Part shown: piece by piece, positions 55,410 through 58,171 of the stretch
How the letters are laid out: every line of letters begins with the position of its first letter
Numbering within the stretch: the first letter of the stretch is position 1
Source: Seonamhaeicola sp. ML3
Lineage (GTDB): Bacteria; Bacteroidota; Bacteroidia; Flavobacteriales; Flavobacteriaceae
Length of the DNA: 64,000 bases
NCBI RefSeq assembly: GCF_023273855.1
Contig: NZ_CP096884.1
Location: 1,426,001-1,490,000 of the forward strand
Reading direction: 5' to 3'
Position numbers and translations under genes: made by a program
Notes under the pieces: model-generated
Databases searched by the model: none
Seen by the model: only the letters and a program-made list of their open reading frames with translations
Told to the model about the DNA's origin: nothing

Positions 55410-56359
55410 TACTGTAGATTTTTAACGACTTTAGCGGTAATACGTTCACTATAGCTATTAATTTTCCAATGACCGGGACTCCATCCTTTTAAAAACCTAT
55501 GGAAATCTGCCCAGGCAACGTGGTACAAAACGCGCCATTCGTTTTCCAAAGCCTCATTTTTTTTGCCAAGAGCTTTGTGTAAGTGATTAAAATAGGTGTC
55601 TAAAACTTGTTGTTCTAAACGCTCACAATCACTTTCGTAAAGACAACTCCCAACAAAATAAGCGACATCTTTCATACCGCATCCACCACCAACATATTGA
55701 AAATCTACACCAGCGACTTCTCCATTGTTTGAAAAACAAAAGTTTGCCAATTTTGCATCGCCGTGAACGAAGGTTTTAAAAGTACAATCATTCAATTTTG
55801 CATCGATTTTAGAAGCTGTAGTTTTTAAGGCCATATCCTCTAAAATTTCAAGTTCTTGAGGTCGGGTATCTAAGTGCCAATAGGTGCCAATGTCCCAAAG
55901 TCCGTTAGGTTCTTTTCTTAAATAGCTAGTATGAAATTGAGCCAACCATTCCAAGCATTTATCAATATCCTGCCATGTTACACTTTGTTTTCGCAATGGA
56001 AAACCCGCTTTATCCAAATCTTCCAGAATTATAAGGACTTCATCTTGATGATGCGCTACAGCAATGCATTTTGGTAAACGAGCCATACTAGAATTAGCGT
56101 ACTTGGTGTACCAAGTGGTTTCAACCTGATAAGATTTTAATTTTCTTAGATGCCCGATGTCGCTATTCCATCCTCTTGGGTGTTTGCTTTTTTGGGGTAG
56201 TTGCACATGTTTAACAACAACGCTTTCTAAAGCTGAATCTTCGAGGGAAACTCGAATAATTTTACCATAACCACTCCATAGTTCTTGAATAACTTCCTTT
56301 TCTTTTAAAGATGATGCGCCAGTGGTTTGTAGAATTATGGATTTGAAATAATTATTCAT
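55409..56359 (-). CDS. Kinase-fold phosphotransferase (ecdysteroid-kinase/choline-kinase-like)
   Basis: A 316-residue aminoglycoside-phosphotransferase-fold protein with catalytic loop [12 protein letters not shown] (HGDxKxxN) and metal motif VDFQYVGGG. An N-terminal segment with [13 protein letters not shown]-like nucleotide-binding character precedes it. The substrate is unknown; related flavobacterial proteins are annotated as oxidoreductase or EcKinase family. Upstream on this strand lies the long noncoding RNA region. Confidence 0.78.
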
Positions 56360-56451
56360 AGGGTTTCAAAGGTAGGGAAAAGTGAATTCAAATAAACCTT
56401 GACTTCAAATTCTACGACAACTCTTCTCTTTAAGCTAAAGCGGTATTATAT

Positions 56452-56484
56452 TTAAAAAAGCGCGCTGAGAATACCTTCGCTTTT
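56452..56484 (-). terminator. Terminator ending the large structured RNA
   Basis: Minus-strand stem AAAAGCG / CGCTTTT with a 15-nt loop followed by TTTT. It separates the RNA from the kinase gene. Confidence 0.6.
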
Positions 56485-57290
56485 AGACAAACTTTCCCAG
56501 GATTATAGCCGTAGCTCTTCCCCGGTTTTCCACGTTTTTCCCATTGCATAGGGAATCACGTACTTGTCTGATGCCTCAATACATTACAACCGTTCGGCAA
56601 CTTAGACTTGGCTTGCATAGAGGCTTTATATCCACGCTTTGCAATTACAAGGGTTGGCTCCCTCACCATTAATAGGCGTCCTCTTTTTGAGGCGGCCTAC
56701 TAGAATGTTCACCGCACAATAAAGGTTTGCGACCTCTATTGTCCCATATATTTCAATGGGTTTAGGCAACTACTAGCTGCTGCAATGCCCGAAGTCTTGT
56801 ACATTTCATTTTTACTCTTCCAATAGAGATTTATCCAATTTTCCTGTGAGGATACTAGGAATCGAACCTAGATATAAAAACCTTTGGCCTAGGAGAAGGG
56901 CTTCGGAAATGGCTCCGTAGATTTTAGCCTACAAAATACCAACCTTCTCCTTGTGTGTTTCCCAACACACGGTATTTCAAGCTACCGAGCAGTTTCCTAC
57001 CGGGTAACTTTAATACTGCAATACGCTCCGTATGGTTGGATGACCAAGACGTAACCCATTACTACAACTTTTCCTGTTGATGTCTCCATCGCAAACCTTT
57101 TTATCGGCTATAAACCCTTATATACTTTAGCAGTTGCCCTTCGTTTATAATGATTTATGTGAGTTGCTTGCTTACATGTACTGTTTCATGAAAAACAGTC
57201 TCTACGCACAGTGCCTGCTTGTAGATTTATCCTTGTTACCAAGTTTATCTAAGGACGATAAGCCGCCCCGTCACGCTATAGTCAAGATTA
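56455..57290 (-). ncRNA. Large, highly structured noncoding RNA of unknown family (about 0.8 kb)
   Basis: There is no credible ORF over more than 800 nt, G+C is higher than in surrounding intergenic DNA, and there are many stable local stems. They include an 11-bp stem 56716-56726/56732-56742, TAGGC+CCTC paired with GAGG+GCCTA (56673-56699), CCTTCTCC/GGAGAAGG (56943-56950 with 56892-56899, closing a 42-nt domain), a 7-bp GTGTGTT hairpin (56953-56970) and a 7-bp ACTGTTT/AAACAGT hairpin (57180-57199). GNRA (GTAA, GAAA) and UACG loops occur. A tRNA-type T-arm, CTAGG-TTCGATT-CCTAG, is at 56855-56871. It follows tRNA-Tyr and a tRNA-like element on the same strand and ends in a terminator. The 5' end is uncertain. 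Confidence 0.6.
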
Positions 57291-57360
57291 AAGAATGACG
57301 ATTTTTTTCAGTGATGAAATCTCGAAAAATCTCACCTTATTTCAATGAACTTTATGTTGC

Positions 57361-57487
57361 GGAACAGATAGGATTCGAACCTATATCTATGCATTTTAAC
57401 TCAATGAATTCTATTTTAAGAAATAGGTTTCGTTGAATTCATAAAATCATTTCAGTGCATTGCATTGACCAACTTTGCTACCGTTCC
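57361..57487 (-). tRNA. tRNA cloverleaf with a 55-nt insertion in the anticodon loop (Phe-GAA-like)
   Basis: Acceptor GGAACGG / CTGTTCC (one G-T), D-arm 57478-57462 with TTGG loop, anticodon stem ATGCA / TGCAT, 4-nt variable loop, T-arm ATAGG-TTCGAAT-CCTAT. All of these are standard. The anticodon loop, however, is 62 nt instead of 7. It starts CTGAAA, as in tRNA-Phe (GAA at 57453-57451), and ends AA. The extra 55 nt fold into a hairpin (ATGAATT/AATTCAT and CTATTT/AAATAG). Discriminator base is G, not the A usual for Phe, and CCA is not encoded. It may be an intron-bearing tRNA, a disrupted pseudo-tRNA or part of the adjacent RNA. Confidence 0.6.
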
Positions 57488-57500
57488 AGTTTTTATCTTG

Positions 57501-57584
57501 TGGGAATTGAAGGATTCGAACCTACTAAGCCTAAAGGCAACAGATTTACAGTCTGCCTCAGCTCTCCAACGCTGACGAATTCCC
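57501..57584 (-). tRNA. tRNA-Tyr (GTA)
   Basis: An 84-nt class II tRNA. Acceptor GGGAATT / AATTCCC, anticodon loop ACTGTAAAT with GTA, long variable arm, T-arm TAGG-TTCGAAT-CCTT. Discriminator A, CCA not encoded. It lies 4 nt downstream of a hairpin that closes the TPR gene, with no separate promoter visible, so co-transcription from the TPR promoter is possible. Confidence 0.93.
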
Positions 57585-57588
57585 TTTT

Positions 57589-57641
57589 AAAATCGGCGAA
57601 GCCTACCCTGAGCGGAGTCGAAGGGTTACTTCGCCGATTTT
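57589..57641 (-). terminator. Hairpin at the end of the TPR gene with a palindromic repeat in its loop
   Basis: Perfect 13-bp arms AAAATCGGCGAAG (57589-57601) and CTTCGCCGATTTT (57629-57641). The 27-nt loop is a dispersed repeat containing CCTGAGCGGAGTCGAAGG. The arm on the gene side overlaps the last codons and stop of the TPR gene. The T run is short (TTTTAAAA), so it may be an RNA-processing hairpin rather than an efficient terminator. Confidence 0.55.
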
Positions 57642-58171
57642 TCAGCTTTCTTGCTTTTCTTTTTCTTTGACTTTTTCTTCTTCTTTTTAGGTTTTATTTT
57701 TTTCTTAACACGGCTCAATTCGTTTTCTACATAGTTAATAATGCAGTTATCAGTTGCTAACTTTAAAGCTGTTTTATAAACTTTAATAGCTGCCTTAAAT
57801 AGGCCCCGCTCTTCTAATAAAACCGCTTTGTAATAGTGTAAAATAGCTTTGTTTACACCTTTTAAAGTCAAAGCAAATGCTATTAGCTTTTCGGCTTCAT
57901 CATAATCTTCATTCCATAGTAAGGTTTGAATGTAGAACGGATATGTTTTTGGCATGTCCATCTCATGTGCCACGGCTTCTGCATAATAGTATTTAGCAGT
58001 TTCGTAATCTTTTAATTGTTCGGCATAAACACGTCCCATTAAGCATAAAGCCTGGGCATCTTTACTGTTATATGACAAAGCGTAGTTCAATGCTTCCAAG
58101 GTTTCTTCTAACTCGTACGGATACGCATCTAAAGCTTTAAACAAATAGTTGTTATGTAAATTATTTTCCAT
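57626..58171 (-). CDS. TPR-repeat protein with poly-lysine tail
   Basis: A 181-residue cytosolic protein of about four tetratricopeptide-like helix pairs (AQALCLMGRVYAEQLKDYETA and KAILHYYKAVLLEERGLFKA). A C-terminal tail of about 27 residues is more than 60% lysine (KPKKKKKKSKKKKSKK). The tail suggests RNA or DNA binding. The gene follows a long structured leader and precedes tRNA-Tyr and the large RNA on the same strand, so a role with these RNAs is conceivable but unproven. No characterised homologue recognised. Confidence 0.75.
   Translation of the reverse strand: MENNLHNNYLFKALDAYPYELEETLEALNYALSYNSKDAQALCLMGRVYAEQLKDYETAKYYYAEAVAHEMDMPKTYPFYIQTLLWNEDYDEAEKLIAFALTLKGVNKAILHYYKAVLLEERGLFKAAIKVYKTALKLATDNCIINYVENELSRVKKKIKPKKKKKKSKKKKSKKAEKSAK

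Follow-up and report, generated by a model that had tools for sequence, protein, structure and literature searches.

The window analysed here, a 64,000-nucleotide (nt) stretch of the genome of Seonamhaeicola sp. ML3 (contig NZ_CP096884.1, positions 1,426,001 to 1,490,000), carries on its minus strand a strongly structured noncoding RNA of about 815 nt (57269–56454) that is almost certainly a full-length, chromosomal GOLLD RNA. The solved GOLLD, env-38, is a 14-mer hollow nanocage whose linker, sometimes with tRNAs within it, points into the empty cage (PMC12286853). The copy described here belongs to a Flavobacteriaceae branch of the family, and the linker of this branch is very probably a circularly permuted tRNA. 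The GOLLD family itself is known; a permuted tRNA in the GOLLD linker of Flavobacteriaceae is new here. As an explanation of the whole, a chromosomal cage GOLLD whose permuted-tRNA linker serves as a tethered mimic is the likely one.

In a permissive Rfam search of 56360–57650, positions 56951–56461 match the GOLLD model (RF02032) over its full length (1–416 of 416) at 118 bits and E 4.1e-32. An earlier note on this DNA, made from the sequence alone, had called the family not recognised and had named a significant hit to a known family as what would overturn that statement; the match shows it to be wrong. The resemblance that the note drew from size, folding and tRNA neighbourhood was right for GOLLD, whereas its second comparison, ROOL, has no match up to E 10 in the same stretch. 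No match to transfer-messenger RNA (tmRNA) was listed there. A default Rfam search of the whole window returned only tRNA and no GOLLD, because the curated cut-off is 150 bits. The eight sister loci scanned all score 119–136 bits for GOLLD, just below this value, and the default cut-off thus hides the Flavobacteriaceae branch. We nevertheless file the RNA as GOLLD because the anatomical features tested are present. These include a variable linker, here with a permuted tRNA (56890–56801), and tRNA genes nearby, here a tRNA-Tyr and an interrupted tRNA-Phe directly upstream. Carriage by a phage or prophage, which is the usual setting of GOLLD and not a condition of membership, was not found among nine neighbouring open reading frames (ORFs). 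Kretsch et al. counted 806 GOLLDs at a threshold of E 1e-5, and the Flavobacteriaceae copies may therefore be among them; the word 'flavobacteri' does not occur in the main text of that paper (PMC12286853).

From its first conserved base to the end of its terminal T-run, the RNA spans 57269–56454, as defined by the Rfam match and by alignment with 14 homologues. The earlier note placed the start of the RNA at 57290; the conserved part begins near 57269, where the 5′ GOLLD start is recognisable by BLAST (query positions 23–65, 57268–57226, match viral-contig GOLLD loci with a best E of 1e-5). The 5′ region (57269–56952), delimited by alignment with homologues, corresponds to the cap domain of the solved structure, and the 3′ region (56951–56461), covered by the Rfam model, to the ring domain. 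The latter is interrupted by the linker, which follows just after its first stem (56950–56892) and was located from an unpaired stretch after about model position 62 and from the linkers of homologues. At the 3′ end lies the terminator already noticed earlier, a hairpin and T-run (56483–56454; AAGCG/CGCTT, 15-nt loop, T6) that is conserved among homologues. A generic terminator scan listed none on the minus strand at the locus because its loop limit is 8 nt. The host genome contains one GOLLD copy.

The noncoding nature and ornate minus-strand folding that the note had described both held up. No closed ORF of at least 60 amino acids (aa) overlaps 56455–57290 on either strand, and 57290–56452 folds at −271.1 kcal/mol (z −7.2), with none of 20 shuffles as good. 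The compensatory changes that it had proposed to look for among Flavobacteriaceae homologues are also there. For 15 copies, RNAalifold predicts 221 pairs, 86 of them with two-sided changes, at an energy of −225.6; ten column-shuffled controls gave 106–131 pairs, 5–12 two-sided, at −43 to −63. This alignment (A2) holds 15 of the 17 family copies, without loci L183 and L228. The window copy keeps 215 of the 221 consensus pairs. Upstream of the linker it shares an identity of 0.81 with the other 14 copies and downstream of it 0.845, against 0.63 within the linker. It departs privately from the rest at 9 of 744 body columns, where the other copies show 0–29 such departures.

Relatives were recovered with a conserved GOLLD 3′ motif, which found at least 118 viral stretches and 48 genome stretches; of the latter, 14 lacked a GOLLD tail and were discarded on inspection as chance matches. 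Genome relatives include Winogradskyella, Hanstruepera, Croceitalea, Maribacter, Allomuricauda and Dokdonia. The 17 Flavobacteriaceae copies are the family matches to the motif together with the window copy and L228, which replaces the incomplete L180 from the same genome; L158 is also incomplete, and L154 is too short. L166, from a Flavobacteriales metagenome-assembled genome and without the module, is counted among 16 other genomic GOLLDs. Of the viral GOLLDs, 108 were classed and ten with less than 480 nt upstream were not. The whole RNA found no BLAST match among phages and plasmids and, in 59 genomes including the host, only the host itself and one 28-base match. A family-specific GOLLD pattern had no match in viral contigs.

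Within the window linker (56890–56801), the parts of a tRNA occur in swapped order. A T-arm (CTAGG TTCGATT CCTAG, 56871–56855) comes first; the earlier note had placed it exactly and understated what it belongs to, since relatives show a permuted tRNA module at this site. It is followed by an acceptor hairpin (56854–56829), in which TATCC (56854–56850) pairs with GGATA (56836–56832) over 5 base pairs, and by a D-arm-like hairpin (CTCT ATTGGA AGAG, 56828–56815). A flanking helix of GTTTTTAT (56881–56874) with GTAAAAAT (56815–56808) may enclose all three, in a single-sequence prediction that breaks the T-arm. Across the family, the order is T-arm, acceptor 3′ strand, a loop that is often ACC or ACCA, acceptor 5′ strand, D-arm and, often, an anticodon arm. 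By reading, the T-arm precedes the D-arm in 17/17 copies, each with all five T-stem pairs.

Several comparisons support the permuted tRNA. First, the acceptor strands form 97 of 119 possible pairs (best of six registers, 17 copies). When partners are swapped among loci with the same choice of register, the value falls to 71.4 ± 5.2, and none of 5,000 swaps reaches 97. Second, the module co-varies. In a 16-copy alignment (A1, from which L183 was excluded as identical to L173 in this stretch), two-sided changes occur at each of the seven acceptor pairs. Over the whole module, two-sided cells number 41, versus 14.6 in shuffles, and covariation is 0.487 versus 0.181. Third, once the module is rotated to linear order, ARAGORN calls a tRNA in all 11 of the copies that have a 5-7-5 anticodon arm, against one of these 11 in the native order; shuffling all letters leaves no call. 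Fourth, a permuted-module finder detects 14 of the 17 Flavobacteriaceae copies, none of the 16 other genomic GOLLDs, none of 108 viral GOLLDs (among the matches listed) and none of 705 shuffled regions. It missed L177, L186 and L187, all three counted as permuted by eye. Linear tRNAs were found in 1 of 17 Flavobacteriaceae, 8 of 16 other genomic and 11 of 108 viral GOLLDs, again among the matches listed. Three viral linker regions (L114, L126 and L132) give linear tRNA-Pyl (CTA) calls by ARAGORN, which are suppressor-type anticodons. A further 13 viral loci with T-arm, D-arm and AAAGAC were judged by reading not to be GOLLD and are probably intron-containing or array tRNA genes.

Individual copies bear on how the module arises and changes. 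The Dokdonia copy, L198, has one T-arm before and another after its D- and anticodon arms, as would be expected of a duplication intermediate. Two Winogradskyella copies, L186 and L195, share 94% of the body but only 65% of the linker, and each has a permuted module with its own D-arm and acceptor. Their modules apparently come from different tRNAs, as if the module were exchanged with its permuted order kept.

On the minus strand, the RNA is preceded by a tRNA array of phage type that has decayed and that it concludes. A tRNA-Tyr (GTA; 57584–57500) is the remaining intact member of the upstream array. Between it and GOLLD lies a tRNA-Phe-like gene (57487–57360; 57.1 bits with the Rfam tRNA model) with a 56-nt insert in its anticodon loop (57449–57394). 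We compared this gene by eye with the intact array tRNA-Phe genes of L157, L171 and L177; ARAGORN, with introns allowed, calls it tRNA-Leu (taa). An intact tRNA-Phe and a second tRNA-Tyr are present elsewhere in the host genome. A homologue of the insert lies within a different tRNA of L185, with GAATTCAACGAAACCTAT and TGAGTTAAAA common to both. The insert looks like a very short tRNA intron or a mobile insert, and the one pattern of it searched in viral contigs gave no match. In relatives, GOLLD is preceded by 11–16 tRNAs (L157, L169, L171, L173 and L176), and three remain in L177.

An element at 57352–57339, AAGTTCATTGAAAT, starts 84 nt upstream of the conserved GGGG start of GOLLD. It is boxA-like, and its resemblance by eye to GAGTTCATAGACAT of the host 16S rRNA leader, where the script pattern was unmatched, suggests rRNA-type antitermination of the long GOLLD RNA. 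A motif of this form lies upstream of 14 of the 15 Flavobacteriaceae GOLLDs tested (L198 being the exception); among other GOLLDs, 12 had sufficient sequence upstream and 8 of these carry it. A sigma-70 scan found no promoter at the locus and is uninformative because Bacteroidota promoters differ.

Nine ORFs between 50141 and 61842 yielded no phage-specific match in PHROG, bearing out the earlier description of a chromosomal setting without phage genes: seven have no match, and the PHROGs matched by the other two, an AraC-type regulator and a cyclase, are of unknown function or of general regulator type. Of 15 GOLLD genomes searched for the TPR gene of the window, 7 have a homologue ahead of the array (L169, L171, L177, L184, L185, L187 and L189), a count in which several of the remaining loci are incomplete. 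G001, a genome of the same genus, retains the flanking genes (TerB-like, TPR, phosphotransferase and inositol-phosphatase), and the slot between them holds five other ORFs of at least 120 aa, with no tRNA by ARAGORN and no GOLLD-like stretch by blastn. Seven related loci at the flanking genes, scanned with Rfam except for the middle of the G001 slot, gave nothing up to E 0.01.

A number of observations weigh against these assignments. The GOLLD score lies below the Rfam gathering cut-off, which is a listing convention and not an anatomical feature. GOLLD is sparse: among 397 family genomes sampled, 2 have the strict motif, the host included, as do 10 of 68 genomes of the genus of L177. The flanks of the window copy have identities of 0.50 and 0.61, a weak contrast with the body because the stretches compared are short (7 and 25–27 columns). 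The window module is reduced: its T-arm is intact, it has five acceptor pairs and no anticodon arm, and it therefore lacks the complete cloverleaf of a functional permuted tRNA gene. Folded alone, the window linker gives no cloverleaf (z +0.56), and a whole permuted cloverleaf appears in two of the five linkers folded (L162, z −1.1; L189, z −1.0), with L186 forming only T-arm and acceptor and L173 only T-arm and D-arm. By script, 6 of 17 copies have no 5-7-5 anticodon arm (window, L173, L176, L183, L184 and L195), although L195 shows by eye a 5-base-pair stem with an 8-nt loop. Encoded CCA is patchy and missing in several copies. Pairing in the acceptor helix holds for 79.6% of cells, with failure of the outermost pair in 8 of 14, and the number of pairs with two-sided change in the 16-copy module alignment, 10, is reached by 29 of 500 shuffles. 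Finally, ARAGORN is lenient, in that acceptor parts taken from other loci still give a mean of 4.8 and a maximum of 9 calls out of 11.

Could the parts of the module belong to something other than one permuted tRNA? Tandem tRNA arrays always show T-arm, acceptor 3′ strand, spacer, acceptor 5′ strand and D-arm, so that the T-arm and D-arm might be halves of two different neighbouring tRNAs. The acceptor pairing, far above that of swapped partners, and the two-sided change at all seven positions largely refute such a junction, and we find it scarcely credible. The order T-arm, acceptor hairpin, D-arm is also that of the bacterial Y RNA YrlA (RF02553), and the linker of L177 matches YrlA weakly (29.1 bits, E 0.034; cut-off 69), as might be expected if a true Y RNA had become part of GOLLD and were the ligand of a Ro60/Rsr protein. 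There is, on the other hand, no YrlA match in 56360–57650 up to E 10, and a TROVE/Rsr gene (PF05731) occurs in one of 13 genomes (G427), not in the host. On these two grounds we judge a Y RNA highly improbable, the more so as a 5-7-5 anticodon arm is retained in 11 of 17 linkers, whose opening lies at the variable loop instead of the anticodon stem.

Two further readings accept the permuted tRNA and deny it a function. The cage interior might tolerate any insert as a spacer, linear or permuted tRNAs landing there without a role. The range of linkers, from no recognised tRNA through linear to permuted ones, and the copies without anticodon arm and CCA fit this, but acceptor pairs that co-vary, a T-arm intact in every family copy and the permuted order common to L186 and L195 despite their diverged linkers look as if the layout itself were kept. 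We rather doubt the spacer, while giving it some weight. The window GOLLD as a whole might instead have no function in this host and be a chance survivor from a former phage or mobile tRNA array, with the module as decaying cargo. An array down to one intact and one interrupted tRNA, the reduced module, the sparse occurrence in the family and the slot of G001 all speak for this, yet the body is as conserved as that of other copies and nearly all its pairs are intact, and we hold a relic to be unlikely. From these comparisons, the RNA seems to have stayed under constraint although its tRNA array decayed.

With a permuted tRNA in a chromosomal cage GOLLD as the preferred reading, we infer from homology and layout how the RNA might be expressed, assembled and processed and what partner it might meet. 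By analogy with the solved structure, it would fold into a 5′ cap and a 3′ ring and by itself form a hollow multimer that encloses the linker. The probable origin of the permuted tRNA is a linear tRNA embedded in the linker that was duplicated and then lost the outer halves, a course proposed as a model for permuted RNAs (PMC3978253). RNase P and tRNase Z could cut a linear tRNA out of the linker; a permuted one could not be released whole by tRNA-processing enzymes because its 5′ and 3′ halves are swapped. Left uncut, the module would be a closed, uncharged tRNA mimic, like a bacterial Y RNA. Cut in the acceptor loop, it would leave GOLLD in two pieces joined by the tRNA fold, as in permuted tmRNA. 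The mimic may offer its T/D elbow and acceptor to a tRNA-handling protein within the cage. We favour a non-decoding mimic because anticodon arm and CCA get lost while T- and D-arms stay, and we propose a tethered, non-decoding tRNA mimic inside an RNA cage as the function only tentatively.

Two other conserved elements were observed in relatives, and both are absent beside the window copy. One is a second noncoding element of about 600 nt, downstream of GOLLD in L169, L171, L173, L176, L185, L187, L189 and L195 and present also in L246–L257. In the loci that were read it contains two permuted tRNA modules in tandem, although they were not seen in L251, with acceptors such as CTTCCCC/GGGGAAG in L173 and CATAAAC/GTTTATG in L247. 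Rfam gives only weak tRNA, YrlA and tmRNA sub-hits in the loci scanned. In an RNAalifold alignment of the 12 of 20 sequences with a recognisable end, 55 of 115 pairs show two-sided changes at −84.4, versus a mean of −0.6 for shuffled columns. Its motif, with at most one mismatch, occurs in 17 of 199 family genomes (0 for a reversed-pattern control), not in the host and in no viral contig. The element is possibly a new large RNA class, independent of GOLLD. The other is an SPFH/Band 7 protein gene of about 365 aa (PF01145, E 1.2e-27 for the L171 copy), which lies downstream of GOLLD and in the same orientation in 12 of the 14 loci inspected (L157, L169, L171, L173, L176, L177, L180, L183, L185, L187, L189 and L195) and follows the 600-nt element in 7 of the 8 inspected (L246–L250, L252 and L253). 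Beside the window GOLLD, a phosphotransferase gene starts at 56359 in place of an SPFH gene. It is conceivable, though quite doubtful, that each chain carries one tethered permuted tRNA whose acceptor loop is cut by RNase P and tRNase Z, giving a two-piece chain with a maturable 3′ end inside the cage, and that the cage, the tRNA array, the 600-nt RNA and the SPFH protein together make up a chromosomal RNA-cage system dedicated to the capture of proteins that handle or damage tRNAs.

A co-varying permuted tRNA in the inward linker is a concrete candidate for what GOLLD cages hold. Sampled viral copies with a linear tRNA or none and chromosomal Flavobacteriaceae copies with a permuted one form a natural contrast that makes the tRNA-cargo idea testable. 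Bacterial tRNA genes are described as 'surprisingly uniform' in a review from 2014, which names permuted tRNAs for an archaeon and algae only; a permuted tRNA with an anticodon arm inside a bacterial RNA would extend this picture (PMC4033280). Literature searches, made partly by title and abstract, returned no report of a permuted tRNA in GOLLD, which does not prove its absence in print, and nothing on GOLLD with Bacteroidetes.

The window RNA shares with env-38 GOLLD (RF02032) the full Rfam model, the conserved 5′ start, the variable linker, the tRNA neighbourhood and the terminal hairpin. It differs in belonging to a chromosomal branch below the Rfam cut-off, in a linker tRNA that is permuted rather than linear or absent, and in having no phage-specific genes among its nine neighbours. 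Mycobacterial GOLLDs, the published exception to phage carriage, are likewise chromosomal and lie within a tRNA cluster, of presumed phage origin, with a pseudo-tRNA inside the RNA (PMC6582537). There, the linker region of L172 (Mycolicibacillus) has a linear tRNA call, whereas the order of the window branch is swapped. ROOL is another large, phage-type cage RNA found near tRNAs (PMC12286853), and is set apart by the missing match. Two-piece tmRNA has a permuted tRNA-like domain too, and processing in the acceptor loop would leave GOLLD similarly in two pieces (PMC3978253). The stretch itself gave no tmRNA match. Bacteria are not known to possess a permuted-tRNA splicing route of the kind used by algae and Thermofilum. 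In the permuted tRNA genes of those organisms, the tRNA 3′ half also lies upstream of the 5′ half, but they are spliced and circularised to working tRNAs, whereas the module lies inside a long structured RNA (PMC3978253, PMC4033280). The closest precedent is YrlA (RF02553; PDB 6CU1), a permuted tRNA mimic with T-arm, closed acceptor hairpin and D-arm; bacterial Y RNA superimposes on tRNA with a circular permutation (PMC11472068). The YrlA consensus order is found in 17 linkers by reading and in 14 by the finder. YrlA, however, is a free small RNA with Ro60/Rsr as its partner and is opened at the anticodon stem, whereas the Flavobacteriaceae module is embedded in GOLLD, mostly keeps its anticodon arm and is opened at the variable loop.
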